A stretch of 64,000 nt of DNA, from the NCBI GenBank assembly GCA_027365225.1, contig DAHXNV010000003.1, positions 1 through 64,000 on the forward strand. The letters run 5' to 3'. Source of the DNA: Gammaproteobacteria bacterium (lineage in GTDB: Bacteria; Pseudomonadota; Gammaproteobacteria; Steroidobacterales; Steroidobacteraceae). Below the pieces are notes generated by a model. The model was not told where the DNA came from. It ran no database searches and saw only the letters and a list, made by a program, of their open reading frames with translations. The stretch's first letter is position 1; every line of letters begins with the position of its first letter. Both the position numbers and the translations under genes were made by a program. Shown here in pieces: positions 9,877 through 25,157 of the stretch.

Positions 9877-9905
9877 CTCGTCAAAGGTGCTCCAGGAGCG
9901 CGGTG

Positions 9906-10244
9906 ATGTCGAGTAATATCAATGGGTTGAATGGGCACTCGCCGCCCCTTGGCGCCGGTGGCGGTGCAAACCGTGCGGCCGGGACGGCCGGCACGGCCGC
10001 TGAGAGCGCTGCCGCGGCCGCGCCCACCGCCGGCTCGAGCCCCTCGGAGGTGCAGATCACCGATTCGGCAAATGTGCTCTCGACCGTGGCCCGGCACCTG
10101 CAGAGCCTTCCGGCCGTCAATGAGGCGCGGGTCGCGCAATTGCGCACGGCCATCGAGAACGGCAGCTACACGGTGCACCCCGGCGTGATCGCCGCGCACC
10201 TGATGCAGCTCGAGCAATCGCTTGCCCAAATCTCCGGAGGCTGA
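9906..10244 (+). CDS. flgM: Anti-sigma-28 factor FlgM
   Basis: FlgM (112 aa from the ATG at 9906) binds and holds FliA until it is secreted through the completed hook. The N-terminal half is Gly/Ala/Ser-rich and probably disordered. The conserved sigma-binding half begins about residue 50 with SEVQITDSANVLSTVARHL and continues with ENGSYTVHPGVIAAHLMQLE. AGGAG at 9894-9898 is seven bases before the ATG and favours it over the GTG three bases earlier. flgN begins four bases after its stop. Confidence 0.95.
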   Translation: MSSNINGLNGHSPPLGAGGGANRAAGTAGTAAESAAAAAPTAGSSPSEVQITDSANVLSTVARHLQSLPAVNEARVAQLRTAIENGSYTVHPGVIAAHLMQLEQSLAQISGG

Positions 10245-10247
10245 TCG

Positions 10248-10733
10248 ATGGACCCTGGTGTTTGCCGCGAGCATCTGACCGAGCTGTTTCGCGACGAATC
10301 GGCATTGCTCGTGGAACTCGAGCAGCTCCTGAGCCTCGAGGCGCGCATCCTCGAGCATTCGGACATCCAGAAGATCGAGCAGACGACCCGCGACCGCCAG
10401 GCGCGCATGGGCGCGCTGGCCCGCCTGGAGGCGCAGCGCCGCTCGCTGTGTGCCCTGCATGGCTTCGCCGCCGACCGGGCCGGCCTCACCGCGGTGATGG
10501 CGTGGTGCGACCCGGGCGGCACGCTCACCGAGCAACTGCGTGAGTGCGCGGAACGCGCCGTCCGTTGCCGCGCGCTGAACGATCACAACGGCGTGCTCGT
10601 TGCCGCCCGACTGAAGCGTATCGAGAGCATGCTCGGGGCGCTCACGGCCCGTCCGGCCCGATCCGATACCTACGGTCCGCGCGGCGGAGTGTCGGCCGGT
10701 ATCCGGCCGGGCAGAGTGCTCGGCGCGGCCTGA
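10248..10733 (+). CDS. flgN: Flagellar export chaperone FlgN
   Basis: FlgN (161 aa) escorts the hook-associated proteins FlgK and FlgL to the export gate. The protein is mainly helical, with an N-terminal heptad pattern (ELFRDESALLVELEQLLSLEARIL) and a C-terminal block RCRALNDHNGVLVAARLKRI that resembles the FlgK-binding region (NxxNG) of FlgN. It directly follows flgM. It faces the end of pelG, 14 bases away. Confidence 0.9.
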   Translation: MDPGVCREHLTELFRDESALLVELEQLLSLEARILEHSDIQKIEQTTRDRQARMGALARLEAQRRSLCALHGFAADRAGLTAVMAWCDPGGTLTEQLRECAERAVRCRALNDHNGVLVAARLKRIESMLGALTARPARSDTYGPRGGVSAGIRPGRVLGAA

Positions 10734-10740
10734 GCGGCGC

Positions 10741-10757
10741 GGCGCGCTCAGCGCGCC
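10741..10757. terminator. GC hairpin between converging flgN and pelG
   Basis: GGCGCGC-TCA-GCGCGCC is a perfect 7-bp stem over a three-base loop that spans the pelG stop codon, just after flgN. It could stop transcription from both sides. There is no clear T-run, so an intrinsic terminator is only possible. Confidence 0.4.
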
Positions 10758-12124
10758 CTGACGAACGTCGTGAAATCGATCCGCTCCAGATCGCCCGTCA
10801 GCAGGGCGAGCCCGAGCAGGTCGCAGACGAACAGCGCCCCGAGAAAGCCCAGGCCGTAGAAGAACGGCCCAGCGCGCAGCGACAGGGCGGTCAAGACGAT
10901 ATTTCCAACGAGAAACATGCCGCTGAGCAAAACGCCGCGTCCCCGCAGGTCCAGATACTGATAGACGTTGAGCATGCTCATCATGAGCAACTGCAGACTG
11001 ACCCCGATCACGTCGAACTGGAAGATGCGCGCGTAGCTGGCCGGATAGCCGAGCAGCCGCAGGATCTGCTGGGCAAAGGCGAAGGCCAGCAGCACGGTGA
11101 TGCCCTGGATCTTGGCGATATCCCACAGGCCCGCCCGCGTCGCGCCGATCATGCCGAGCTTGGCCGCATGCAGCTCCGCGTAGCTTCCGCCCTCGACGAT
11201 GGCCCGGTTGTAGGCGTCGTAGGCGTCGACGAAATCGGTCTCCAGGCGAAACAGGAAAACCGCCAGACCCGGCACGATCAGCAGGTAACTCAAGAAGATC
11301 GGCACGTCGTAGATGGGCGAGTCGCGCAGCGGTCCGATCACCGCCCCGCTGGTCAGCGGATCGAACCAGAAGAGAAACTTGTCGGCCCACACGGCGAGAT
11401 TGAAGAGCAGGCCGGACAGGGACAGAGACCACAAGAAGCGGCCGCGGCCCTGGTACGCGCGCGGCCACTGCAGGTGCCCGGGGAATTCGCGAATGATCAG
11501 TATGCCGAGCGCGAGCAGCAGCAGTCCCTGGCCGATGGCAAACGCGACGAGGTACCCATCGAGCCCCCAGCGCGCCCCGAGCCTCAAGCCGAGCACCACC
11601 ACGGTGAGATAAGCCAGAAGATACGCGGCGACCAGTCCCTTGTAGTCCTTGAGGCTGGTGGCCATGATGGTCAGGACCCACACACCGCACAGCTCGGTGA
11701 ACGCGATGGCGAGCAAGACCTGATACCGCCAGGGAGTGGCGCGGAAGAACAGGGTGAGGGCGAGCGCCGCAAACACCGCGCCGAGCGCACAGGCGCCGGC
11801 GAGCATGCTCAACAGAACGGGAATGACGGCGCGTGCCTGCCGCGCGAACAGCATGTCGGCGATGTGACGGGTGAACAGCAGCTGCAAGGGACCGGTGAGT
11901 ATCAGGGAAACGGCGATCAGGTACGTGACCGACACCTGGAACTGGATGACCGGCGTGGAGGCGAAGCGAGCGCCGAGCGCGAAGAACCCGAGGAGCAGGA
12001 TGCCGAAGATCGACAGCAGCCAGGGACCGGACGAAACGATGCCGGCATAGGTATAGGCCTCGAGCAAGGCCCAGTAGCTCTTGCGCCGCAGGATGCGGCG
12101 CAGTTCGAAACCGATGCCCGCCAT
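10748..12124 (-). CDS. pelG: Pel polysaccharide inner-membrane transporter component PelG
   Basis: PelG (458 aa) is the polytopic membrane protein of the Pel synthase, thought to carry the nascent polymer across the inner membrane with PelD, PelE and PelF. The ATG at 12124 yields MAGIGFELRRILRRKSYWAL, the family start, followed by about 12 hydrophobic segments. The FELRRIL motif, length near 456 residues and last place in the operon all match PelG. It starts two bases after the pelF stop. The frame continues upstream over pelF, but the conserved N-terminus fixes the start. Confidence 0.95.
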   Translation of the reverse strand: MAGIGFELRRILRRKSYWALLEAYTYAGIVSSGPWLLSIFGILLLGFFALGARFASTPVIQFQVSVTYLIAVSLILTGPLQLLFTRHIADMLFARQARAVIPVLLSMLAGACALGAVFAALALTLFFRATPWRYQVLLAIAFTELCGVWVLTIMATSLKDYKGLVAAYLLAYLTVVVLGLRLGARWGLDGYLVAFAIGQGLLLLALGILIIREFPGHLQWPRAYQGRGRFLWSLSLSGLLFNLAVWADKFLFWFDPLTSGAVIGPLRDSPIYDVPIFLSYLLIVPGLAVFLFRLETDFVDAYDAYNRAIVEGGSYAELHAAKLGMIGATRAGLWDIAKIQGITVLLAFAFAQQILRLLGYPASYARIFQFDVIGVSLQLLMMSMLNVYQYLDLRGRGVLLSGMFLVGNIVLTALSLRAGPFFYGLGFLGALFVCDLLGLALLTGDLERIDFTTFVRAR

Positions 12125-12126
12125 GA

Positions 12127-13620
12127 TTAGACCCCGAGCGCCTCCCGGTAGAGGTGGCGATAATGTGCCAACATCTGCGTGTCCCGGTAGAGCGCCTCCA
12201 CCCTTGCGATGGCGTTGCCGCTGCAGCGGGACCACAGGGACTCATCGCCGAGCAGCGTCTCGATGGAGCCGGCCAGGGCGTGCGGATCGGCGATCGGCAC
12301 GATACGGCCGGCGGCCCGCGCAGCGGAGGCATCCGGGGCGCCATAGAGCAATTCGCGGCAGCAGCCGACGTCCGTCGTCACCACCGGGACGCCGGCGGCG
12401 AAGCTCTCCAAGACCGACAGCGGCAGGGCTTCGCTGATGGAACTCAGGACGGTCAGACGAACCTCGGCGAGCACCTCGGCGACCGATTGAAAGCCGCGGA
12501 ATCGCACCCGCTCCGCCAGGCCCAGGTGCTCGACCAGCACGCGGCATTCCTCGTGGTACTGCTCGTCTTCCTCGGTCGGACCGACGATCCAGAAGGTCGG
12601 CGCGGGACCGTCCGCGCGCAGATGTGCGGCGGCGCGGATGAAGGTCTTGATGTCCTTGATGGGCACCACGCGGCCGACCAGCGCGACGATGTTGCGCCGC
12701 TCGCGGAAGGAGCGGCGGCAGGAAACGAATCGCTCGACCGCGATCCCGTTGGGAATGGTCGTCAGCTTGTCCGGGTCGGCTCCGTCACTGATCTGCGCGG
12801 TGGCCATGCCCGCGTAAAGGTTGACCACCCGCCAGGCCTGTCGATAGCTCACCCGTCCCAGCAGCTCGAAAAAATCGATCCAGAGGTGACGCAGGTGGTG
12901 CACCCGCCCGGGCCGCTGCAGGAATTCCTCGTCCTCGTGGATCCAACTTGCCCGCATCATGTCCAGGCGTCTTTCCTTGGTATAGATTCCGTGCTCGGAA
13001 ATGATCAATGGCCGGGCCCAACGATCGCTCAGCACGGCGGCCAGATAACCGGCATAGCCGGTGGAAGGACTGTGCAGCACCCGGGCCCGCGGGGCCCGCT
13101 CCATGGCGGCCTGCAGGACCCACAGCGGAGCGTGCATGCCGCGAACGGTCCAGAAATAATCGACGAACGGCGGTTGATCGGGGATGCCGGCATAGCACTC
13201 GAGCAGATAGTCCCACGCCGCGCGGCCCTGCAGAAACGCCTCGTGGGTGATTTGGAAGTTCGCACCACAGCGGCTCAGATCGAGGGGCGCGTCCGCGCCG
13301 GCAATGCATTGGCGCATCTGCGCATGTCCCGAGCGCACGGCATCGAGCTGCGCGGCGCCGGCGGCGCGTCGGCCGCCCGTGGTGCGCGCGGGCGCGTCGA
13401 ACAGGAAATACTCCGCGTAGTACTCGACATTGGCGGGCAAGGCGTACGGGGTGTGGCGATAGTCCTGGCGCGCGCTGCCGAGAAAAATGACACCGAAGCG
13501 CAGGTCGGAGCAGCCCTGAATCAGGTGATCGACCCAGGCCGAGACCCCGCCCCGGACATAGGGGAAGGTGCCCTCGAGCAGGAGCAGCACATCGACGGAT
13601 CGCGCGCCCTTGTTGATCAT
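12127..13620 (-). CDS. pelF: Pel polysaccharide glycosyltransferase PelF (GT4 family)
   Basis: PelF (497 aa) is the cytoplasmic glycosyltransferase that polymerises the Pel backbone from nucleotide sugars. It starts MINKGARSVDVLLLLEGTFP followed by YVRGGVSAWVDHLI, the hallmark of PelF. The C-terminal Rossmann domain has NGIAVERF, VGRVVPIKDIKTFI and the GT4 E-x7-E motif (EALPLSVLE) followed by SFAAGVPVVTTDVG. Length is near the 507 residues of Pseudomonas PelF. The ATG overlaps the pelE stop by four bases. Confidence 0.96.
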   Translation of the reverse strand: MINKGARSVDVLLLLEGTFPYVRGGVSAWVDHLIQGCSDLRFGVIFLGSARQDYRHTPYALPANVEYYAEYFLFDAPARTTGGRRAAGAAQLDAVRSGHAQMRQCIAGADAPLDLSRCGANFQITHEAFLQGRAAWDYLLECYAGIPDQPPFVDYFWTVRGMHAPLWVLQAAMERAPRARVLHSPSTGYAGYLAAVLSDRWARPLIISEHGIYTKERRLDMMRASWIHEDEEFLQRPGRVHHLRHLWIDFFELLGRVSYRQAWRVVNLYAGMATAQISDGADPDKLTTIPNGIAVERFVSCRRSFRERRNIVALVGRVVPIKDIKTFIRAAAHLRADGPAPTFWIVGPTEEDEQYHEECRVLVEHLGLAERVRFRGFQSVAEVLAEVRLTVLSSISEALPLSVLESFAAGVPVVTTDVGCCRELLYGAPDASAARAAGRIVPIADPHALAGSIETLLGDESLWSRCSGNAIARVEALYRDTQMLAHYRHLYREALGV

Positions 13621-14534
13621 GAGCCGCAGCCCAGCCAGAATCGGTGCGAGGGGCCGTAGCGCGCCGACAAGCGCAGTTCGGGATGCTCGGCGTACACCCG
13701 GCGCAACGCGGGAATGTCGTTTGCGGCGTAATGGGCCGCCGCCAGATGGGGCGCGACGATCGCTCCCCCGGCGCCGCGGCGCTGCGCCTCGAGAAGTGCC
13801 GCGACGGCCTGGACGGTGTTGCCGGTTTCGAGGTGACGCAGTCCGGCGAGCAACGCCAACGTTGCATCCCCGGCGTCGTCCCGGCCGTCGTTCGGCGCGG
13901 AAGCGCGCGCAGGTCCCTGCGTCCGTGCGCTCGGAGCGGCCATCTCTCTTGCGGCCGAGTGATCGATGCTCCATTGCAGCCAGGCCTGATAGCCGCGCAG
14001 GCGATGCAGCCGGCGCGTGTTCCCGGCCGCATCGATCTGGCGCCGCAGGCCGATGAGCAGTTCCGTGTTCTCGTGCTCGCGCTGATCGAGGGCGGCGTAG
14101 GCCAACAGCCGCACCTCTTCGGCCTCGTCCTTCAGCGCCGCGCGCAGCAGACGATACTGGTCGAGGAATCGGGAATTGGCGATCTGGGAGAGCGCCGCCA
14201 CCCGCTGGCGCGGATCGCGTGAGCCGGCGAGGCGCCCGGCAACGCCGCCGGGCGCGGCGGCGGAGGGCTGGAGGCGAAAATCCCGCGCCGCGGGCGGCAC
14301 CTGGATCGGCTCCACCTCGGCTCGATCGATCTTGCGGTGCACGCTGCGCAGGGCCGCGGCGTACGCGACGATCAGAATAGCCCCGATGAACGGCATCGCC
14401 AGCGCCATCACCAGATACAGTACCGTGCCGAACACCCTGCGCGCCCCGGGCGCCACGGGCGTCAGGAGCGAGGCCGACAGCACGGCCAGGAGCGTGCAGA
14501 GAAGATCGGCAGCGACGAGCGCGAGGAGCGTCAT
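13617..14534 (-). CDS. pelE: Pel biosynthesis membrane protein PelE
   Basis: PelE (305 aa from the ATG at 14534; a GTG one codon earlier is equally possible) is an inner-membrane partner of PelD in the synthase complex. Two hydrophobic segments lie at about 5-27 and 35-60. The rest is cytoplasmic and helical with TPR-like Ala/Leu repeats (ALLAGLRHLETGNTVQAVAAL). Sequence conservation in this family is low; the call rests on the two N-terminal membrane segments, the length and its place between pelD and pelF. Confidence 0.88.
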   Translation of the reverse strand: MTLLALVAADLLCTLLAVLSASLLTPVAPGARRVFGTVLYLVMALAMPFIGAILIVAYAAALRSVHRKIDRAEVEPIQVPPAARDFRLQPSAAAPGGVAGRLAGSRDPRQRVAALSQIANSRFLDQYRLLRAALKDEAEEVRLLAYAALDQREHENTELLIGLRRQIDAAGNTRRLHRLRGYQAWLQWSIDHSAAREMAAPSARTQGPARASAPNDGRDDAGDATLALLAGLRHLETGNTVQAVAALLEAQRRGAGGAIVAPHLAAAHYAANDIPALRRVYAEHPELRLSARYGPSHRFWLGCGS

Positions 14535-15820
14535 CACCCACCGCCCGGCGCGAGCGCCTCGCGCAGCTGCACGGCGGCATCGCGCTCATCGACCCTGAAG
14601 AGGTGATGGGCGCGGCAGGCTCTGGCCCAGGATTCGGCATGGTACTTGCGCTGCTCGCCTTCGATGCGGCTCAGATAGCCCTCTGCGGCGCTCGCGCCGG
14701 CAAAGGGCAGCAGGGCGATCATCAGGAGCCGGCCGGGCTGTCGATGCACCCAGAGCATGTCCATGCCGCGGCGCAGGTTTTGAGTGCGGGCGACGATCTG
14801 CTCCGCGTCGTCCCCGGGTTGGAATTCACAGCGGATGAGCATGCCGGCTTGCGGCACGAGCCGCGCCATACGCTCGAGCTGCAACAGCACGGTCGCAAAC
14901 TCCACCGGACAGTCCGGCCACTGCGCGCACAAGGGGCGAGCGCGCAGCACGGCGGCGCGATAGCCGCACAAGTATTGGAACAGCACTTCGACGATCTGCA
15001 GCTGCTCCCGGTTGATTGCGAAGAACGACATGTCCTCGATGCACAGGATCTGCCGCTCGGCGTCGCTGTTGGCGTGTACGTGAACGGCGAGGAAATGCTC
15101 AACGCGGCTCAGATCCAGATCGGCCAGACACCGGCTTTCGCCCGCTGCGAGGGCCGCGCGCAGGACCGGATCCTCCGGTTGCCAACCCGAGCCCTCGCCG
15201 AGCGACGCGAGCGGCCGCGGCTGCGTCTCGCCCCGCCCGCACCGATACCAGGCGGCACGCTGCACCCCGCTCAATTGGTTGAGGAAGTAGAGAAAACGGG
15301 ACAGGACGCTCTGGTCGAACTCGCCTTCGGCGGCGGCCAGCGTGCGCTGCAGCTCCTGCAGCGCGCTGCGTGCCGAAACCGGTTGATACAGCAGGCTCTG
15401 CTCCAGGCGATCGAGGGAAACGCGGGTGACGTACAGATCGTCGGCGAGCTGCCGCAGCCGGGTGCCCGTGATCTGATCCTGCAGCACCCGGCCCGCCTCG
15501 CGGCGCGACCAGTAGGAGGCGTACTCGGCGGCGATCAGGGTCACCAGCCCGACGCCGGCGCAAACCGTCAGGGCCTCGGATGCGGGGTAGGGGTGCCAGA
15601 GGAAGGTGCTCGCCAGTACCAGGCTCGAGAGCAGGGCGGGCAGGAACTGGTAGCGCAGCGCGATCAGCAACGGGATGAGGAGCAGCCAGGGAAACGGCTG
15701 GCGCAGCAACAGCGGGTCGCCCGGATCGAGCAGGCGCGTCAGCAGCACGGCGAGGGCCGGAAGGAGGAGGGCCTCCAGCCAGCCGTGCCCGCGACGGGCA
15801 ATGGCACTGAGGATTCGCAT
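14534..15820 (-). CDS. pelD: c-di-GMP receptor of the Pel synthase, PelD
   Basis: PelD (428 aa) is the inner-membrane c-di-GMP receptor that switches on Pel synthesis. Four hydrophobic segments fill about residues 13-105, followed by a short coiled stretch, a GAF domain (about 165-290) and a degenerate GGDEF domain (about 300-425). The inhibitory-site motif RxxD is preserved as RGMD at 351-354, corresponding to R367-D370 of Pseudomonas PelD, while a catalytic GG(D/E)EF is absent. It should therefore bind, not make, c-di-GMP. The ATG at 15820 is four bases after the pelC stop. Confidence 0.94.
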   Translation of the reverse strand: MRILSAIARRGHGWLEALLLPALAVLLTRLLDPGDPLLLRQPFPWLLLIPLLIALRYQFLPALLSSLVLASTFLWHPYPASEALTVCAGVGLVTLIAAEYASYWSRREAGRVLQDQITGTRLRQLADDLYVTRVSLDRLEQSLLYQPVSARSALQELQRTLAAAEGEFDQSVLSRFLYFLNQLSGVQRAAWYRCGRGETQPRPLASLGEGSGWQPEDPVLRAALAAGESRCLADLDLSRVEHFLAVHVHANSDAERQILCIEDMSFFAINREQLQIVEVLFQYLCGYRAAVLRARPLCAQWPDCPVEFATVLLQLERMARLVPQAGMLIRCEFQPGDDAEQIVARTQNLRRGMDMLWVHRQPGRLLMIALLPFAGASAAEGYLSRIEGEQRKYHAESWARACRAHHLFRVDERDAAVQLREALAPGGG

Positions 15821-15824
15821 CGCG

Positions 15825-16358
15825 TCACTGCAGGGCGCGGGCGAGCAGCCGGTGAATGAGGCGTTGGGCGATTGCGGCCGTGCCGGATCGTCCGAGGCTG
15901 CCGCCGTGGGCGCTGCCGACCCCGCTCCAGATGACCGTCCCGCTGGGCACAGCGACAACCCAGAGGGTCAATGACACCTCCGGTTCGGCGTTGATTCCGG
16001 CGCGATAGCTCCACTGCTCGACGCTGCCCCCCAGAGCATAGCGGGCGCCGGCGGCGCGTGCGGCGGCCAGGGCCCGGGAGTAATCCCGCCGCCAGTCCCC
16101 GCCGAGCAGGGCCTGCGGCCGGCTGCTGATCGGCAGAGTTCCCAGGACGCGATGGCCGTCGCTTTGCAGAAGGCCCGCCGCCAGGGCCGCGGCCCGTGCG
16201 TTGGCGACCGGTGTCTCGGTGTTGTTGGCGAACGGCAGGACGGCCCACGCCGTGTCCGCGGCGGGCCCGAGCGGGCGTTGCGCCTGGATGTTCATGCCGG
16301 CACAGCCCGCCAGCATTGCCAGCACGATGGTTGGAATCAGCAATTTTCCGCATTTCAT
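15825..16358 (-). CDS. pelC: Outer-membrane lipoprotein PelC
   Basis: PelC (177 aa) is the lipoprotein that forms a dodecameric ring on the inner face of the outer membrane and funnels the cationic Pel polymer to the PelB porin. The ATG at 16358 gives a lipoprotein signal with LAGC (Cys about 19). The mature part has WAVLPFANNTETPVANARAA, typical of the PelC core, and length matches the 172-residue Pseudomonas protein. It follows the barrel-forming PelB fragment by 26 bases. Confidence 0.94.
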   Translation of the reverse strand: MKCGKLLIPTIVLAMLAGCAGMNIQAQRPLGPAADTAWAVLPFANNTETPVANARAAALAAGLLQSDGHRVLGTLPISSRPQALLGGDWRRDYSRALAAARAAGARYALGGSVEQWSYRAGINAEPEVSLTLWVVAVPSGTVIWSGVGSAHGGSLGRSGTAAIAQRLIHRLLARALQ

Positions 16359-16384: not shown

Positions 16385-17857
16385 TTAGAAGTAGTATCGG
16401 TAGCCGATCTTGATGATTTGTTGGGTCAGCGCCAGAGCATGGTCGCTCTGCCCCTGGGCGAAGCCGATGCGCAGCCGGTCCGGTCCGAGGATCGGGGCGC
16501 TGATCCCCGCGCCGAGCTGATATTCCGGACCGTAGCGCGTGTTCTCGTAAACACTGAGCGTGAGGTAAGGCGTCCAGGGCGCGTGCAGGGCGCGCCGCCA
16601 CGCCGCCCACTGCAGCCGCACCCCCGCGTCGGCATAGCTGCCGGACAGCAGCAAATCCGGGCCGTGCGCCCCCGGCGGGAGCAGCCCGGCCAGCACTCCG
16701 CTCACCGCCCGCCGCCGCGCCAGCGCGTGGTAGTCGGCAAACGGCCCAGCCTGCAGCTCCCAGGGACCGAGCGCGTGGCCCCACAGCGCGGCGGCCTCGA
16801 CGAAATGATCTTGACCGAAGGCGATGCCGTCCTGCCCCAGATACCGCTTCCAACCCAACCCCAGGCTGTCCGTCCATTGGCCGAGCCGTTGCGTCCACTC
16901 GAGTGCGGCGCGATCCACCATGCCGCCGAGGGCCAGGGCGGGACTCTCGAAGCTGCGGGCGTGATAGTCCCCGACCCCCGAGAGCGCCCCGCCGCTCGGT
17001 GCGCGCCACAACGCCTCGAGTCGGGCAGTGAAATTGTTGCGTAGGGCCGCGTATTGTCCGGCCTCGACCCGAATCCTCCAGCGCGGGTCCTGCCAGTAAA
17101 ATCCAACCAGGGCGCGGCTGCTCCAGGCCGATCCCGCCGCGAGCCGGGCGCTCGCCGCCGCCGCTCGCTCCAAGGTGTCGGCCCCGAGGAGCACGCCCCA
17201 GCGATCAGCGAGCGACAGCCGCGCCCTCAGGCGCGACCCATAGAGTTGTAGCCCATCGAAGCTGCGCCAACTCCCCCGCAGGTCGAGGTAACTGGCGCTG
17301 CGGCGCACCGACTGCAGATATTCCCGGCGCAGCGCGCGATCCCAGGGATCGCGGCGCAGCGCGCGCAACGCGTCGCGGCGGGCCTGCCGGTAGCGCTCGA
17401 GCTGCATCTGTGCGCGCACTCGATTGTCCGGGGCGAGACCGGCCGGGTGCTGGAGCAGGCGGGCGAGCTCGGTCAGGTCGCGCCGATGCAGGGCCAGGCT
17501 GAGCCGGACCCAGCGCGGGGGCGGGCGGGAATTGCTGTTGATCAGCCGTTGCGCCAAGCGCCAGTGATCCTGCGCGAGGCTCCAGGAGAGGGCCGGCAGG
17601 TCGTCGCCGCAGCGCGCGGCGGCAAACAACGTCCGGCGGGTAAAATTGCCCTCGCTCGGCGTGGCGGCCAGGCTGGCCGCCAAGTCGAGCAGTGCGCGAT
17701 CGGTGGACGGGTTGGATCGCCGGGCGGCGGAGCCGGGCGAGGTGCACCGCGGGGCCGCGATCCGGGCCGGGGCGGCCGCGGCGGTCTGCGCGCTAATCGC
17801 CATGAGCGTGACGCCAAGGCCGAGCAGCCACAGTACGTTCCTCGTGCCGGGGCTCAC
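16385..17857 (-). CDS. pelB: PelB C-terminal part: outer-membrane beta-barrel porin of the Pel secretion path
   Basis: This 490-aa protein corresponds to the C-terminal third of canonical PelB (about 1193 aa in Pseudomonas). The GTG start at 17857 overlaps the previous stop as GTGA and gives a Sec signal peptide (NVLWLLGLGVTLMAISA core, cleavage near QTAAAA). Residues about 40-190 are helical. From about 190 on, alternating strands (GVLLGADTL, GGMVDRAALEWTQ, YLTLSVYENTRYGPEYQLGAG) run to a terminal YRYYF whose final Phe is the usual BAM recognition end. In other organisms this domain is fused to the TPR region; here it is a separate polypeptide. Confidence 0.9.
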   Translation of the reverse strand: MSPGTRNVLWLLGLGVTLMAISAQTAAAAPARIAAPRCTSPGSAARRSNPSTDRALLDLAASLAATPSEGNFTRRTLFAAARCGDDLPALSWSLAQDHWRLAQRLINSNSRPPPRWVRLSLALHRRDLTELARLLQHPAGLAPDNRVRAQMQLERYRQARRDALRALRRDPWDRALRREYLQSVRRSASYLDLRGSWRSFDGLQLYGSRLRARLSLADRWGVLLGADTLERAAAASARLAAGSAWSSRALVGFYWQDPRWRIRVEAGQYAALRNNFTARLEALWRAPSGGALSGVGDYHARSFESPALALGGMVDRAALEWTQRLGQWTDSLGLGWKRYLGQDGIAFGQDHFVEAAALWGHALGPWELQAGPFADYHALARRRAVSGVLAGLLPPGAHGPDLLLSGSYADAGVRLQWAAWRRALHAPWTPYLTLSVYENTRYGPEYQLGAGISAPILGPDRLRIGFAQGQSDHALALTQQIIKIGYRYYF

Positions 17858-19506
17858 CGCCGCATTCCCGCCGGGCGGGGGCCCGCCAGCGCGCGCACGC
17901 TCTGGGCGGCGGCCCTGCGCCGCAGGGTCCAGGCGAGACCGGGATGGCCGCTGTCCTGCCAGAGCCAGGCGCGGGCGAGGAGCGCGTGCGGGTCGCTCGA
18001 GCGTGATTGCCGGTTCGCGCCGGTCAGTCGCAGTGCCTGGCGCGTCAGACCGAGGCGCTCCAGGGCGGCGCGCACGGCCCCGCGCAGGGCTGCCGGCGGA
18101 TGCAGGCGCTGGCCACTGAGCAAGGCCCGCAGGGTCTGCCGTTGATCGGAGTCGATCAGCATCCACAGCAGACGGTCTTGCACCGCCGCGTCCTTCGGAT
18201 CGAGGCGGATCGCCTCGGCGTACGCATACCCGGCGAGCGCGGCATTACCCCGCGCGCTGCCCCATTTCGCCAGGGCCAGCCAATAGGCCGGATAAGCCCG
18301 CCGATCCGCCGGGGCGCGCGCAGCGGCGGTGCGCAGCAGCGTGCCGAGCTCGGTCCACTGTCCGGCTCGTGCGGCATAAGCAAGGCTCTCGAAGTAGAAG
18401 GTCGGGGCCCGAAAGCGCCGCCAGCCCGCTTCAGCCACGGCGAGCGCCGCCGTGGGATCGTGCCGGCCGGCCAACGCCACCAGGCGCAGCAGATCCTGTT
18501 CGCGCGCCACGCCGAGTAGATACAGGGTCTTTTCCGCGCCATAGGCCGCCGGACCGGCGTGCAGATTCCAGGCCAACGCGCCATAGAGTCGCCAGAACGG
18601 CACGTCCGTCGGGGCCGCCTCCCGGCGCACGCGCTCCATGACCGCGAAGGCCCGCCGATCGCGGCCCTGCATGGACAGAAGTTGGGCTTCCTGCAGCGCC
18701 AAATCCGGCGTTGGCCGATAAACCGCGGCGATGCGCCGCAGGGCCCGCAGGCTGCGCGCGATGTCTCCCAACTGATAGGCGAGGTAGGCGCTCTGCTCGA
18801 GCAGATAACGATTGGGGCCGAAGCGCTTCAGATCCGCCTCGATGATCGCCAGGGACTTGCCGGGCTCGGCCAGCGCTCCATAGGCGAAGATCAACGACTT
18901 CCAGTCGGCATGATCGAGCCGTCCGGATCGGGCCCGCTGCGCGAGCAGCCGCACGACGAGGCGCGGTTTGGACAGGTCCAGGGCCAGCTGTAGCGTCTTC
19001 GCGAAGGCGCGCGGATCGCCGTGCTCGGCGAGCCAACGCCACTGTTGGAGCGCTTCGGTCCGCTGGCCGAGCCAGAGGGCCACCCGGATCAGCCGGTGGC
19101 GCCAGATGATGTCGTTGGGTCGCCGGGTGACGGCGGTATAGGCGAGGCGGTATGCGGCATCGAGTCGGTGACTCTGCAAAAATGCCGTGTAGGCGAGCCC
19201 ATAGAGGTTGGCCGAATAACGCCCCGGGAAGGGCTTGAGCGGTCGCGGTGCGCTGTACCAGGACGGGGAAACACCGCCGTCTTGCAGATAGCCGAGCCGC
19301 TTACCGCCGGTGCGGCTCTGTTCGAGCTCGATCGCGAAGTGATTGGCATACTCCTTCGGCCGCCGGTATCTGGCCCGCCATGCGGCGTCGTGCGGCGCCA
19401 AGCTCCCCGCCGCGTTCCACCAATCGGCGGGGACGCGCGCCCCATGAGCGAGAGCGACCGTTGAGAGCAGCGCGCCGGCGCACAGCGTCCAGCTTCCAGG
19501 TCTCAT
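17854..19506 (-). CDS. pelB: PelB middle part: periplasmic TPR protein
   Basis: This 550-aa protein matches the long TPR region of PelB that binds PelA and positions modified polymer. It begins with its own Sec signal (MRPGSWTLCAGALLSTVALA, cleavage near HGA). Helical repeats follow throughout, for example YSANLYGLAYTAFLQSHRLD, RYLLEQSAYLAYQLGDIARSLRAL and GNAALAGYAYAEAIRLDPKD. Its ATG overlaps the stop of the preceding gene by four bases, and its stop overlaps the start of the barrel gene. No transmembrane segment follows the signal, so it should be soluble in the periplasm. Confidence 0.86.
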   Translation of the reverse strand: MRPGSWTLCAGALLSTVALAHGARVPADWWNAAGSLAPHDAAWRARYRRPKEYANHFAIELEQSRTGGKRLGYLQDGGVSPSWYSAPRPLKPFPGRYSANLYGLAYTAFLQSHRLDAAYRLAYTAVTRRPNDIIWRHRLIRVALWLGQRTEALQQWRWLAEHGDPRAFAKTLQLALDLSKPRLVVRLLAQRARSGRLDHADWKSLIFAYGALAEPGKSLAIIEADLKRFGPNRYLLEQSAYLAYQLGDIARSLRALRRIAAVYRPTPDLALQEAQLLSMQGRDRRAFAVMERVRREAAPTDVPFWRLYGALAWNLHAGPAAYGAEKTLYLLGVAREQDLLRLVALAGRHDPTAALAVAEAGWRRFRAPTFYFESLAYAARAGQWTELGTLLRTAAARAPADRRAYPAYWLALAKWGSARGNAALAGYAYAEAIRLDPKDAAVQDRLLWMLIDSDQRQTLRALLSGQRLHPPAALRGAVRAALERLGLTRQALRLTGANRQSRSSDPHALLARAWLWQDSGHPGLAWTLRRRAAAQSVRALAGPRPAGMRR

Positions 19507-20348
19507 CGCCGTGACGCCACGGGCCGACGCTCCAGCGCGGCACTCAGCCAGCGGGAGGCGCGCTGCGGTTGGCCGGCTGCCAGGGCGAGCCGCGCCATGA
19601 ACAGTACGATGGCCCGATCCCGCCACAGACCGGGCAGATGCGCCAGGGTCGCCCGTCCGGCCGCGAGGGCGGCAATCGCCCCCGCACCGCCTTCGAGCCA
19701 GCCCATGCCGTGTAGAAAGAAAGCGCTTTGCCGCACCGGATCGTGACTGCGCGCCGCCAGGGCCAACAGCAGCCGCCCGCCCCGCGCACTGCGGCCGTCC
19801 GCCGCCCAAGCCCGGGCCGCCCGCTCCTGATCCTGGCGGGCGCTCGCCGGGTCGCGCCGGGCCGCGGCCAACCAGGCCTTGGCGCTGAGCGCATAGGCTC
19901 CGATGGCGAAGGCTTCGCGGGCGAGGCTGCGCCACTGCGCCGCCGGCCAGCGGCCTGCCTCGATGAGTTGACCGAGCAGGGGTTGCAGGCGCCGCATCGC
20001 CCGCCGGTGTGGCGCTGTGCCCGCAGCGTGCGCGAAGGCCTCGGTCAGCTCGATGTGCCAGCGCGTGAGCAGGGCGGCGCGATAGAGGCGGCTGCGCGGA
20101 TCGCCCAGCAGCGGCGCCAATTGCCCTTCCGCGGCGCGATACTGGCCGCTGCCGAGCAGCACCGTGGCGCTTTGCAGGCGGGCCCGGGCCTGCGCCGTGG
20201 ATTGCCCGAAGGCGAAACCGCCATGCCAGCCGTACTGCCACGCCACGGCGAGAATGACGGCCAGCACCGCCCCGGCGAACAGCAACAGCCCGGCCGGGCG
20301 CAGCAGGCGGCCGTGCCCGCGCTCAGCCTGATCAGGGGCAGCGTACAT
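19503..20348 (-). CDS. pelB: PelB N-terminal part: inner-membrane anchored TPR protein
   Basis: This 281-aa protein matches the N-terminus of canonical PelB. A single uncleaved transmembrane segment lies at about residues 18-40 (PAGLLLFAGAVLAVILAVAW). The remainder is TPR-like (LQSATVLLGSGQYRAAEGQL, AAGQPQRASRWLSAAL) and would face the periplasm. The start at 20348 overlaps the pelA end by 17 bases, and the stop overlaps the next PelB gene by four. Together the three PelB genes encode about 1320 residues, slightly more than one fused PelB. Confidence 0.82.
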   Translation of the reverse strand: MYAAPDQAERGHGRLLRPAGLLLFAGAVLAVILAVAWQYGWHGGFAFGQSTAQARARLQSATVLLGSGQYRAAEGQLAPLLGDPRSRLYRAALLTRWHIELTEAFAHAAGTAPHRRAMRRLQPLLGQLIEAGRWPAAQWRSLAREAFAIGAYALSAKAWLAAARRDPASARQDQERAARAWAADGRSARGGRLLLALAARSHDPVRQSAFFLHGMGWLEGGAGAIAALAAGRATLAHLPGLWRDRAIVLFMARLALAAGQPQRASRWLSAALERRPVASRR

Positions 20349-23082
20349 GGACGATCACATCGCGGTCCGGGCTCGCAAATTCTCCGGAGGGGCCGGGACT
20401 GGCCGGATGCCCGTTGAGCGCGACGCGGCACGCGCGGATATTGGCGAGGCGAAGCTGAACCGGCACATGGCCGTGCACACCTGCGGTGAATGTCGTGGCG
20501 GTCGCCGCGACGGCCGCGATCGGCGCGTTGGCGCTGATGATATAAGGTGTTCGGGTGGGGGTGTGCCGCAGAGCGAGCCGCACCGAAGGCTGTCCGTCCA
20601 TGTGCACGTAGAGCCTGCCATTGGGGCTGTCGTCATAACCGGCGATACCCCGACTGCGGGCAATGTCGGGCACGCCGAGCGACTTGGGCATGCGCAGCTC
20701 GCGCAGGGCATCGGCGCCGCCGATCCAGAAGCCCTTGCCCTGCCGGGCGATGTGGATGGCGAAGAAATTCTCGACGATATGGGCATAATTGGCGGCGTAA
20801 ATCGGCGTGATCGGCCGCTGCAGCACCCAGCGGTAGACCTTGTTGACGGCCGCCAGAGACGCGAGCGTGCTGCCCGAATACCAATGCGTGTAGATGTCGA
20901 TCGGCTTGAGCCGGTGAGGCCTGTCGGTCATCGCGAAGGTCTGGATGACGTTGATGTAGCCCCAGTACGGGCCATGCCACAGGTTGGTGAAGTAGTCCTC
21001 GTTGGCCTCGGGGGCGAAGACCTGCAGCCACTTGCCGCGGAAGATTCCGATGGGCGGTACCGCGGTGATGGTGGGATTCTTGCGGTTGATGTACGCGGTG
21101 CCGCCGTTGATGTTCATCAGTCCGGCGCGGTAGGCCAGACCCACCACCTCGGCATCCGGATCACAGTCTCCCGACCACTGGTCGATGACCACGCGCTTGC
21201 CGGGGGGCGCCAGATGCGCATCGATCCAGCGCGCGGCGCCGACCGCCTCCATGTAGGGACTGAATGTGTAGCCAGGCACCGGCAGATTGTTGCCGGGCAG
21301 ATTCTCGCCCGCCTCGATGGCCGGCCAGTCGAATGGATGCGACCACATGTGCGAGCCGATCTCGACATAGGGCAGACGGAACAGTCGCCGCGCGACTTCG
21401 GTGCCCAGGGGCGCGAGCGCGGGGTACAAGCCGCGATTCCCGGGCAACAGGTCCCCGACGATGACCGAGCCGGTGAAGGGCAGCTTGTAGCGCTCCACGA
21501 TCCGGTGCATGTAGACCTCGCCAGCGATGTGATACGGCGGGAATTGGGCGCGACTGAGGAAGCCGTCACCGTCGGTGTGGGCCATGAAGAGCCGTCGCCC
21601 GCTTTCCGTGGTGGTGTCCGGGACGGGCATGCGCGGCAGATGCAATGCCGCCCGGTACAGGCGGAAGGGATCGACCAGCCAGCGCATCTTGCCGTCGGGC
21701 AGAGCGGTGAGCAGATAGGGCGGCAGGACATAGCCGCCCCACGGAGTGATCGCGGCGGCGTCCTCCACCTGCCCCGAATCGCTGCGCAGCCGCAGCCAGA
21801 CGCGGCTGCCGCTCGGCGCGGCAACTTGAAGGAAATCCCGCCGGTTCGGCCGGACACGCGCCTCGGCATTCATCGCGGCGGCCGCGTGCTCGATCGTCAC
21901 TGCCGCGACGTTGCGGGAGTGCGGTTTGCTCATCCCCAGGGCGCGATACGCGCCTCGATCCAGATCGTCGGGGAAATTCTGCAGCAGCAGCAGCGGGATG
22001 CCCGCGGCTCGAGCCGCCCGCAGCCACGATGACAGGCCGCCGGCGTCGTCGGGGTGATTGAGGTCGTCCCAGACGATGATTCCGGCGTACTCGCCCGCCG
22101 TCGGCCTGGCCGGTAGGCCCCGGGAAAGGCGGCTGAATACGGGGATGTACCCGAGGTACTCGAGCGGCATGGCGCCGTCGGCGAAGGCGAGACTGTACTG
22201 CTGCGCGTGCGCGCTGTTGTAAAGGATCAGCACATGCCGCGGCATCGGCTCGCGCAACCCCGCGCCGACGGCCGTGAGGTGGCCATTGGTGACGTACGGC
22301 ACGAATCCCATGCCCTCGATCCTGCGGGCATCCTGCCACCAGCCGCGCCGATTCAGGCGCGTCGGCAAGTAGTCGACGACGATGGCGGGCAATCCATAGG
22401 CGTGCACCCGGCGCAACTGGCGGAGCAATGCGTGGCGCGCGGGCGCGGCAACCCGACGATACGTGTCGCTGCGTTGGCTCCAGCCGTGAAACAGGGACTC
22501 CGCCACCACACCGACCAGATCGCGGTGTACCCGGGCGAGGACCGTGAATCCGCGATTGGCGATCAGCGCCGCGCCGGGATGGGTGGCCTCGATGGACCTG
22601 ATGAGCCGCACGAGGCCGGTTTGCTCGGCCGCGCGCGCCCGAGCGCCGTGCACGAGGCTCTCGTAGGAATCGAGCGCATCCAGAAAAAATCCGCGATAGC
22701 CCTGTTGCCAGAGTGGATCGATGACGCGGCGCAGCAGGTATTCGCGGCACTCCCGGCGCGCCAGGTCGATGATCCTGCCCCCCCAGACCGTGTCGCGGCC
22801 GAGGACGCAACCGCCAGGCAACCTCGCGTAGCGCGGGTTGCCCGGCGTCGTTTCGCCCATGCTGGCGTAGGCAAAGACTTTCTGCCCGGCCGCGAAATCG
22901 CGCGGCAGGCGCCGCCGGCCCGGATCGACCACCAGCCAGTGGAAATCGCGGAAGGCGGCGGGTGCGGCACCGCCGCCGTAATAGAAGCCCACACTCGGCA
23001 GGCTGCGCGCCAATGCCGCCGACGACAGACAGAAGCTTGCCAACGCGCAGAGCATGGGCCAAACCGGGGTTCGCAACCGCAT
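20332..23082 (-). CDS. pelA: Pel polysaccharide deacetylase/hydrolase PelA
   Basis: PelA is the periplasmic enzyme that deacetylates and can also cleave Pel. From the ATG at 23082 it has 916 residues; a GTG at 23100 would add six, and numbers here count from that GTG. After a Sec signal (to about 32) there is a GH166-type barrel (about 35-280) with FFLDALDSY (D141/D144) and VVAESLFHG (E201, likely catalytic). A flavodoxin-like part follows. Then comes a CE4-like deacetylase with HTDGDGF (508-514) and EIGSHMWSHPFDW (580-592), whose His584 and His588 should bind the metal. All hallmark residues are intact. It is the first gene of the pel operon. Confidence 0.96.
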   Translation of the reverse strand: MRLRTPVWPMLCALASFCLSSAALARSLPSVGFYYGGGAAPAAFRDFHWLVVDPGRRRLPRDFAAGQKVFAYASMGETTPGNPRYARLPGGCVLGRDTVWGGRIIDLARRECREYLLRRVIDPLWQQGYRGFFLDALDSYESLVHGARARAAEQTGLVRLIRSIEATHPGAALIANRGFTVLARVHRDLVGVVAESLFHGWSQRSDTYRRVAAPARHALLRQLRRVHAYGLPAIVVDYLPTRLNRRGWWQDARRIEGMGFVPYVTNGHLTAVGAGLREPMPRHVLILYNSAHAQQYSLAFADGAMPLEYLGYIPVFSRLSRGLPARPTAGEYAGIIVWDDLNHPDDAGGLSSWLRAARAAGIPLLLLQNFPDDLDRGAYRALGMSKPHSRNVAAVTIEHAAAAMNAEARVRPNRRDFLQVAAPSGSRVWLRLRSDSGQVEDAAAITPWGGYVLPPYLLTALPDGKMRWLVDPFRLYRAALHLPRMPVPDTTTESGRRLFMAHTDGDGFLSRAQFPPYHIAGEVYMHRIVERYKLPFTGSVIVGDLLPGNRGLYPALAPLGTEVARRLFRLPYVEIGSHMWSHPFDWPAIEAGENLPGNNLPVPGYTFSPYMEAVGAARWIDAHLAPPGKRVVIDQWSGDCDPDAEVVGLAYRAGLMNINGGTAYINRKNPTITAVPPIGIFRGKWLQVFAPEANEDYFTNLWHGPYWGYINVIQTFAMTDRPHRLKPIDIYTHWYSGSTLASLAAVNKVYRWVLQRPITPIYAANYAHIVENFFAIHIARQGKGFWIGGADALRELRMPKSLGVPDIARSRGIAGYDDSPNGRLYVHMDGQPSVRLALRHTPTRTPYIISANAPIAAVAATATTFTAGVHGHVPVQLRLANIRACRVALNGHPASPGPSGEFASPDRDVIVHVRCP

Positions 23083-23342: not shown

Positions 23343-24242
23343 CTATCCCAGCGCTTCACGTAATGCGGCGATCTCCTCGGCGGATTCGGCCAGCAGGGTC
23401 TCGCAGGCCGGCTCATCGAGTCGCAACCGTTGCAGGGGCTTGGCTGCGGCGATGCGCCCGGAGAGCGCCGCGGTGTCGCTGCAGTCGGCGAGCAGCGTGC
23501 CGGCGAGCAGCGCATCGGCCAGCGCCGGCGCGCCGCGCGCATCCCGCTCGTAGTTCTCCGACTCCTGCACGGCCTGGACGATCTCCTCGGCCATGCCCCA
23601 GTTCTCGAGCAGCGCCGCGGCGATGCTCAAATGCCACGCCCGCTCGATGGCCGCGTATTCGGCCGCATCATGAAACAGGGAACGGTGGCGGCTCGCGCGC
23701 GTCAGAATATAGAGTTTGCCGACACCCTGGAGAAGCCCGGCCAGCAGCGCCGTGTCCGCCATCGCGGTGGTCAGTCGCCGGGCGATGACGAAACTGAGGG
23801 TTGCGACGTTCACGCCCCGCCGCCACAACTCCCCGAGCTGCGCCTCCAGGCCGCGCAGCGCCGGCGCGGCCTGCAATTGGCGCAGCGCGAAGGCGATGGT
23901 CGCGGAGCGCACGGTGTCGAGCCCGACGCGGGTCACTGCGGCGCGCAGATCGCTGACCCGCGGACCGCAGGGGTTGAGCGCGGCCGAATTGGCCATGCGC
24001 ACCAGTTGCGTCGCCAGCACCGGTTCGCTGCCGATGACACGCAGGATACGGCCAAGATCGGCAGCCGGATCGCTGAGCACCCGCTGCACGCGCATGACGA
24101 TGTGCGGAAAGCCGGGAAGCTCCACTTTGCCGTCCGTGAGCTCGGTGGCGAGCTCGCGCACGAATCCGAAGGCGATATCCTGATCCGGCGCTCCCGGTGT
24201 GCCGCGGCTCATGATCGCGTCGGTGTCGAATTGCGAATGCAT
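23343..24242 (-). CDS. HDOD-domain signalling protein (second of a tandem pair)
   Basis: This 299-aa protein is an HDOD domain over nearly its whole length: LPGFPHIVMRVQRVLSDPAADL, GRILRVIGSEPVLATQLVRMANSA and VSDLRAAVTRVGLDTVRSATIAFAL. HDOD is a non-catalytic relative of HD-GYP. The metal-binding HD pair is lost; the usual HDIGK site reads QGVGK here, so phosphodiesterase activity is unlikely. It is clearly a paralogue of the neighbouring HDOD gene 27 bases upstream. Family members act as protein-interaction hubs in chemotaxis, motility and c-di-GMP circuits. The specific role here is not known. Confidence 0.88.
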   Translation of the reverse strand: MHSQFDTDAIMSRGTPGAPDQDIAFGFVRELATELTDGKVELPGFPHIVMRVQRVLSDPAADLGRILRVIGSEPVLATQLVRMANSAALNPCGPRVSDLRAAVTRVGLDTVRSATIAFALRQLQAAPALRGLEAQLGELWRRGVNVATLSFVIARRLTTAMADTALLAGLLQGVGKLYILTRASRHRSLFHDAAEYAAIERAWHLSIAAALLENWGMAEEIVQAVQESENYERDARGAPALADALLAGTLLADCSDTAALSGRIAAAKPLQRLRLDEPACETLLAESAEEIAALREALG

Positions 24243-24269
24243 CGGCGGGGAGCGCTCTTGGGATGCGCC

Positions 24270-25157
24270 TCAGACGCCGAGGGCGTCGCGCAGAGCGTCG
24301 ATCTCGTGCTGCGATTCCTCGATCAGCTGCTGGTAGCCGGAGGTGTCGATCTGCAGGCGCCGGCACGCGGTGACGTCGTGCATGTTCAGCTCCAGCGTGT
24401 CGGGGTGGTCCTTGAAGGCGCTCAGCAGATGGCTCACGGTGAGCACGTCGGTGAGGTCGGGCGGACCGACATGTTTGCGCTCGAGGTCCTCGTAGTTGCT
24501 GACGGCCACGATGATCTCCTCGGCCATCTCCCAGTTCTCGAGCAGCGCCTGGGCGATCGGCGTGTGCCACTCGCGCACGATGCCGCTGTAGACGCCCTGA
24601 TCGGCCAACAGTCCCGGATAGTGTGTGGCGCGCGTCAGGATGTAGAGACGGCCGATGCCGTGCAGCAGCCCGGCGAGCATCGCGGTGTCCGGATTGACGC
24701 GGCTGAAGCGCTTGGCGACCACGTACGACATCGCGGCGACCGCGGCGCTGGTTTGCCACAGTTCATCGAGCGGTTGCTCGAGTCCCTTCAGGGTGTCGCT
24801 CTTTTTCAGCTGCGACATCGCGAAGGCGATCGCGGCGCTGCGCACCATGTTGAATCCAAGCCGGGCGATCGCCGTGCGCAGCTCGGTGATCGGCCGGCCG
24901 CTGTAGTTTATGGCCGCGGAGTTGGCGATCTGCAGCAGCCGGGCCGCCAGCATCGGCTCCGAGCCGATCACGCGTACCACTTTCTCCTGCGAGACCTCCT
25001 CGTCCGAGAGCACCTGGCGTACGCGCAGGGCGATGTCCGGGAAGCTCGGCAGGTCGACCTTGCCGTTGGACAGCTCGGCGGCGAGCGCCTTGACGAAGGC
25101 GAAGCCGTCCGCGGTGCCGCCCTGGGCGGCGGGAAGTTGCTGGGCGGGGGTGCTCAC
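24270..25157 (-). CDS. HDOD-domain signalling protein (first of a tandem pair)
   Basis: This 295-aa HDOD protein has LPSFPDIALRVRQVLSDEEVS, EKVVRVIGSEPMLAARLLQIANSA and a degenerate metal site, HGIGR in place of HDIGK: the His remains, the Asp is gone. It resembles the next gene over its full length, so the pair probably arose by duplication. A sigma-28 promoter candidate sits 27-53 bases upstream of the ATG, making it a likely FliA-dependent chemotaxis accessory gene. Catalysis is not expected. Confidence 0.88.
   Translation of the reverse strand: MSTPAQQLPAAQGGTADGFAFVKALAAELSNGKVDLPSFPDIALRVRQVLSDEEVSQEKVVRVIGSEPMLAARLLQIANSAAINYSGRPITELRTAIARLGFNMVRSAAIAFAMSQLKKSDTLKGLEQPLDELWQTSAAVAAMSYVVAKRFSRVNPDTAMLAGLLHGIGRLYILTRATHYPGLLADQGVYSGIVREWHTPIAQALLENWEMAEEIIVAVSNYEDLERKHVGPPDLTDVLTVSHLLSAFKDHPDTLELNMHDVTACRRLQIDTSGYQQLIEESQHEIDALRDALGV

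Follow-up and report, generated by a model that had tools for sequence, protein, structure and literature searches.

Must one continuous protein span the bacterial envelope for the biofilm sugar Pel to be secreted? PelB is the large protein that carries Pel over the envelope. In the DNA studied here (the window, meaning the whole 64,000-nucleotide stretch analysed), the interval between pelA and pelC was occupied by three frames on the minus strand, named B1 (281 aa), B2 (550 aa) and B3 (490 aa). A PelB made of three proteins would be a natural test of this question, as it has been proposed that PelB physically bridges both membranes (PMC12141448).

Organization of the pel locus

The genes of the locus are listed below.

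20332..23082, minus strand: pelA; PF03537, E 6.3e-16; homologues precede pelB in related loci
19503..20348, minus strand: B1 (PelB-N); ATG at 20348, stop at 19503, 281 aa; corresponds to about PelB 1–263
17854..19506, minus strand: B2 (PelB-M); ATG at 19506, stop at 17854; TPR protein of 550 aa
16385..17857, minus strand: B3 (PelB-C); GTG at 17857, stop at 16385, 490 aa; PF24604, E 1.3e-38
15825..16358, minus strand: pelC (lipoprotein); ATG at 16358; named from its position, the lipobox LAGC and homologues at the same place elsewhere
10748..15850, minus strand: pelD, pelE, pelF and pelG, in that order

The pel operon was complete, with A, B1–B3, C, D, E, F and G in order on one strand. Family matches assigned A, D, F, G, B2 and B3, including PelD (PF16963, E 6.9e-26), PelF (NF038011, E 4.3e-167) and PelG (PF16933, E 7.7e-135). 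C and E were assigned by position and homologues: PelC had an LpoB-type match under the Pfam cut-off, and PelE, which had no family match, was named from its position and from homologues at the equivalent place.

The end of pelA and the start of B1 overlapped by 17 nt. The B1/B2 junction was an ATGA overlap and the B2/B3 junction a GTGA overlap. These coordinates agree with the first-pass annotation, which had described three overlapping genes of these lengths with these junctions. It had also noted a terminal Phe on B3; the protein ends in ...YRYYF, and F490 was invariant in 14 of 14 rows, with two residues past it in L125 and L126. Among the loci compared, all 28 junctions between B1 and the gene after it offered a start codon in a 4-nt overlap (L052, frameshifted, was omitted). 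The B2/B3 overlap measured 4 nt in 16 of 20 loci and 8 nt in the other four (L111, L114, L116 and L117). Because the start codon closest to the overlap was chosen, these counts establish the presence of a start at that place but say nothing about its use.

Upstream of pelA, on the minus strand at 23343–25157, lies a pair of neighbouring, similar-looking frames (299 and 295 aa) that we take to resemble HDOD-type regulators. Two short frames on the plus strand at 9903–10733 point at the pelG end and presumably resemble flagellar FlgM and FlgN.

Relationship of the three proteins to PelB

In PelB, TPRs 1–19 lie at residues 69–726 and the barrel at 876–1193, with an alpha-rich region between them (PMC12022489). 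PelA binds TPRs 9–14 (PMC12022489), and its contact on PelB has been given as residues 332–436 (PMC12141448). Residues 762–802 are unresolved in the structure and are followed by two TPRs from residue 803 and a stalk, without which the co-purification of PelC was lost (PMC12141448). The N-terminus may form a membrane helix that lacks a cleavage site (PMC12141448).

The three proteins correspond to consecutive parts of PelB, because their profile matches run one after another along P. aeruginosa PelB (PDB 9h80 chain M, 1193 aa). The profile of 19 B1 rows matched residues 4–263 (E 2.3e-23), the profile of 12 B2 rows matched 300–720 (E 1.1e-26), and a profile combining B3 rows with relatives of the fused and one-gene forms matched 713–1193 (E 3e-93). 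B2 also matched PF13429 TPR_15 (E 3.5e-44), and the PF24604 match of B3, to the PelB C-terminal barrel, covered profile positions 2–309 of 309. A TPR scaffold between anchor and barrel was found through the B1 and B2 profile matches. B1 alone had no Pfam or NCBIfam match, and B3 alone, as a single sequence or a B3-only profile, had no match to PelB (9h80_M) in the PDB. The observation of a three-gene PelB was thus confirmed, and the three proteins do hold the PelB content earlier ascribed to them. PelB joins anchor, scaffold and pore in one polypeptide; here, and likewise in relatives, they were found on three frames. The parts of the three proteins are as follows.

20232..20294, minus strand: B1 residues 19–39, hydrophobic segment read from the sequence; probable inner-membrane anchor
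19447..19506, minus strand: B2 residues 1–20 (..ALA/H), signal-peptide-like N-terminus, rule-based
19207..19431, minus strand: B2 residues 26–100, N-terminal extension, acidophile clade only
17774..17857, minus strand: B3 residues 1–28 (..AAA/A), signal-peptide-like N-terminus, rule-based
17303..17683, minus strand: B3 residues 59–185, helical region, the second half of which aligns with the PelC-ring-docking stretch of PelB
16388..17302, minus strand: B3 residues 186–490, barrel domain, PF24604

B1 would thus comprise the probable inner-membrane anchor and the first TPR-like helices. In B3, W116 was placed near PelB 805 by profile alignment. Y408 was invariant in 14 of 14 rows and aligns, as read from the alignment, to Tyr-1103 in strand 12 of PelB, a residue singled out in PMC12141448. 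The structure prediction proposed by the first-pass annotation gave a helical model for B2 and no usable one for B3. The AF2 model of B2 consisted entirely of helical repeats (mean pLDDT 61), and the 50 Foldseek matches listed were generic TPR-type solenoids (TMq 0.13–0.30). For B3, AF2 run on two sequences (window and L017) gave no fold (mean pLDDT 33).

P. aeruginosa PelB resembles the three proteins in module order and content, in its placement between pelA and pelC, in the PF24604 barrel and, by alignment, in the PelA-binding and PelC-docking regions. It differs in being one chain, whereas here there are three chains with two extra signal-like N-termini, and in lacking the N-terminal extension of B2. 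Both cuts fall near module borders of PelB, with B3 starting upstream of the PelC-docking part. The first cut separates the anchor and early TPRs from the PelA scaffold, the second separates this scaffold from the PelC-docked pore, and the cuts thus mark functional borders. B2 covers the PelA-binding region in the alignment, and we infer that B2 may hold PelA and B3 may hold PelC.

The B2 extension comprises approximately 75 residues after the signal and is missing from other PelBs. Nineteen of its 75 columns were invariant in 12 rows, and the rest of B2 was alike (56/200 and 52/245). An HMM of the extension matched 22 frames (two of them duplicates) in 136 sequences, all of them B2 or fused B2–B3 of the acidophile type; the fused L062 and L124 also carry the extension. 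Among 274 class genomes, the extension of the window matched the window, G216 and, weakly, G232. We guess that it is a candidate chain-to-chain contact. The weak match in G232 (L138, G232:C8:76598-76771; E 8.8e-4, 44% identity, query 2–56) lies in an 812-aa frame, and this genome is not among the PF24604-positive class genomes.

Signal-like N-termini of B2 and B3

The N-termini were tested with a home-made rule, which required an n-region net charge (N-terminus counted) of at least +1, an uncharged hydrophobic core, and small residues at −3 and −1. By this rule, which is not a trained predictor, 17/17 B2, 19/19 B3 and 11/11 fused B2–B3 proteins passed, compared with 663 of 9830 (6.7%) internal M/V/L positions of the same proteins. 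The B2 of L025, L113 and L125 (start outside the contig), L052 (frameshift) and the B3 of L113 (frameshift) were omitted. The signals that the first-pass annotation had assigned to B2 and B3 were therefore recovered as signal-like N-termini. B1 passed the same rule in 23 of 29 cases, so the rule is blind to the difference between a cleaved signal and an anchor.

The best 9-residue hydrophobicity mean at the B2/B3 joint was 2.26–2.97 in nine split rows; among fused rows it was 1.33 in L062, 1.08 in L124 and 1.01–2.17 in seven others. With 12-residue windows, the split L112 (1.47) was lower than three fused rows. Hydrophobicity of the joint was rejected as a separator of split and fused forms, since the ranges were not cleanly apart. 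The linker of L062 resembled the signal of L055 (4 of 1000 shuffles equally good). In the comparisons with L112, the window, L118 and L024, 527, 779, 198 and 427 of 1000 shuffles, respectively, were as good. The linker may be a decayed signal peptide, its similarity being to L055 alone of the five compared.

Distribution of the pelB architectures

The PF24604 survey gave 10 genomes above the cut-off among 99 relatives, 17 among 369 genomes of the class, 16 among 398 of the phylum, 19 among 31 of the order of G376 and one among nine of the order of G216. None of 14 control genomes matched. After repeats were removed, and counting only matches over the cut-off, the PelB barrel was present in 57 genomes, a sample that is not random because one order was added on account of the split occurring there. 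B3 was a separate gene in 20 of the 57, and all three genes were visible in 17 (G000, G056, G037 and 14 from the order of G376), so the suggested survey for the same split elsewhere succeeded. G011, G856 and G868 showed the B2/B3 junction only, owing to contig ends, and the B3 of G868 looks frameshifted. Twelve genomes had two genes, B1 and B2+B3: G022, G055, G019, G029, G052, G328, G454, G246, G304, G216, G843 and G360 (frameshift). In G328 and G304, B1 was named from its place and hydrophobic start, BLAST having given no match. One gene was found in 18 genomes, as judged from frame length and place after pelA. The remaining seven were G023, G450, G198, G654, G852 and G854 (contig ends or a stop) and the atypical G810.

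The split occurs beyond this genome. Of the 17 barrel-bearing genomes from the even class draw, seven had one gene, six two genes and two three genes (G000 itself and G376), with two unresolved. In the order of G376, which includes A. caldus, three genes were found in 14 of 19 barrel-bearing genomes. The other 12 of its 31 genomes had no barrel, and a PelA search in 10 of those gave none, so the barrel and pelA travel together in that order. No PelA match was obtained in G854, whose barrel lies on a short contig. In the genus of the window, the barrel family occurred in 10 of 58 members searched.

The two-gene PelB shares with the three-gene form the first cut, the 4-nt overlap and the signal-like start of the second protein. 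It differs in keeping B2 and B3 in one protein, and the B2 extension is absent outside the acidophile clade.

The locus L087 (G810:C38:45500-57500, minus strand) is compact and pel-like. Its PelA frame of 338 aa matches the N-terminal part of PelA only, and a PelB frame of 658 aa is followed by a PelD frame; no match to PelC was seen in between.

Phylogeny and selection

A PelA tree of 45 rows was built by a quick method with SH-aLRT support; the root was not inferred, and the tool flagged long branches and odd letter make-up for several rows, including the window. The one-gene rows lay on one side of a branch with support 99. A clade of 18 rows (support 100) consisted of all 16 three-gene rows and the fused L124 and L062. 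The architecture takes four changes on this tree, compared with a mean of 21.3 after shuffling. This suggests stepwise fission from one gene with at least one later re-fusion; fission is the simpler reading rather than proof, because of the long branches, the odd make-up and the root not being inferred.

A topology in which the three-gene rows stand apart from L124 and L062 jointly was rejected. With sets picked after seeing the tree, placing L124 alone outside the three-gene clade was also rejected (p 0.0012, concatenation), and placing L062 alone outside was not (AU p 0.129 for PelA and 0.144 for the concatenation). In the L124 protein the B2 end runs directly into the B3 core, with the linker and signal gone. 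Since its placement outside the three-gene clade was rejected, L124 is most likely a re-fusion of B2 and B3. With natural variants in which the chains are split or joined again, one can ask for each part which joints matter.

PelA identity to the window was 82% and 94% in the two other three-gene loci of the genus that possess PelA, and 40–41% in four two-gene loci of the genus. The genus thus has two distant pel lineages (L018–L023 versus the window, L024, L025 and L026), which suggests transfer.

The dN/dS (NG86) was below 1 in all 15 B1, B2 and B3 pairs among the window, L026, L024 and L025. It was 0.32–0.69 for B1 (three pairs, the window and L026 giving 0.69), 0.33–0.56 for B2 (six) and 0.29–0.36 for B3 (six). 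The yardsticks PelA (three pairs) and PelC (six pairs) gave 0.28–0.29 and 0.12–0.34. The mean column identity of B2 was 67% in 12 rows. Apparent frameshifts or stops within B3 or the B2 part occurred in L113 (G868), L115 (G852) and L052 (G360), and may reflect decay or misassembly of some copies. The three-gene pelB is a real split and not a broken gene, as had been claimed: the frames are open in relatives and the dN/dS is below 1.

Alternative explanations

The split could in principle arise from sequencing or assembly frameshifts that break one pelB into three frames. The window genome is a draft of 218 contigs that is 65.6% complete, and three relatives do have apparent frameshifts, but the identical three frames recur in 17 genomes, one of them A. 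caldus ATCC 51756, and the overlaps and signal-like N-termini are conserved. We regard such an artefact as exceedingly improbable. A real split that is now decaying and losing its pieces would agree with the apparently frameshifted L113, L115 and L052 and with the one high B1 ratio. It is very unlikely in view of the dN/dS below 1 in every pair, the sharing of the split by a deep clade and the column identity of B2.

The short overlaps put the next frame near, and L124 and L062 encode fused B2–B3, so the overlaps might be programmed frameshift sites from which full-length PelB is made too. However, the read-through product would have a signal peptide in mid-chain, and the overlap is 8 nt instead in four loci; this reading is unlikely. 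Our signal rule would equally accept a B2 whose signal stays uncleaved and anchors it in the inner membrane next to B1. The hydrophobic cores of B2 are short and lead into x-x-A sites (ALA, AQA and SHA, for example), whereas the hydrophobic segment of B1 is longer, and we consider an anchored B2 rather unlikely.

Proposed secretion system

The preferred reading, to which we give a probability of roughly 0.8, is that this locus specifies a functional Pel secretion system in which PelB is produced as three chains. From the gene structure, homology, conservation, constraint, spread and signal-like N-termini, we infer location, contacts, coupling and function as follows. The N-terminal helix of B1 would keep it in the inner membrane, with the first TPR repeats facing the synthase side. 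B2 would be exported to the periplasm as the TPR scaffold holding PelA. After export, B3 would insert into the outer membrane, its stalk within the PelC ring and its barrel serving as the exit pore. The stop/start codon overlaps may couple translation of B1, B2 and B3. The polymer would pass from B1 to B2 with PelA and then to B3, and chain-to-chain contacts would stand in for covalent joints.

The first-pass annotation had expected both the PelA–TPR and the TPR–barrel contacts to be made between chains as a consequence of the split. The TPR–barrel part stands, and the B1–B2 joint is to be added: the novelty of the split would be that the TPR–TPR (B1–B2) and TPR–barrel (B2–B3) joints must be non-covalent. 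For PelA and the TPRs the split alters nothing, because they are separate chains in every Pel system. We speculate further, tentatively and with some doubt, on a non-covalent relay in the acidophile clade. B2 would be a free periplasmic component, an exchangeable PelA carrier docking to B1 and B3 partly via its clade-specific extension, and Pel export would need no covalent PelB. If so, evolution could have broken and restored the joint, since what counts is the contacts alone.

A precedent is known from the alginate system, where AlgK and AlgE likewise place the repeat scaffold and the barrel on separate chains (PMC9384988). AlgK differs in being lipid-anchored at the outer membrane, and the account of alginate given there describes no inner-membrane third part (PMC9384988).

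Earlier reports and Acidithiobacillus

The legend to Fig 5 of a 2020 paper mentions 'pelB fission' in 'aquatic thermophilic species' (PMC7112194). As here, pelB is in more than one gene; the legend gives no part number, boundaries, signals or species, and the main text does not name Acidithiobacillus. In the open-licence literature we found no other mention of a split pelB, nor any experiment with such a protein. Acidithiobacillus pel operons are drawn in supplementary figures of PMC4331095 and PMC5852609, where the split may already appear.

In A. caldus MTH-04, pelA, pelB and pelC are RS00180, RS00195 and RS00200 (PMC7237784). If these locus tags step by five, two genes would precede the named pelB. 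A search for a single pelB may name B3 only, and MTH-04 seems to be such a case. A pelD mutant of A. thiooxidans had an altered biofilm (PMC5852609, PMC7825692). Experimental support for Pel in Acidithiobacillus is thus indirect.

A tblastn search of the plasmid collection with P0003 gave no match. Over the 6000 bases compared, two contigs of G859 were 100% identical to the A. caldus ATCC 51756 plasmids NZ_CP005987 and NZ_CP005988, which identifies L112 as the pel locus of this strain. L112 has all three pelB genes. With the three-gene form in A. caldus and the link between pelD and biofilm in the genus, tests in non-pathogens are feasible.
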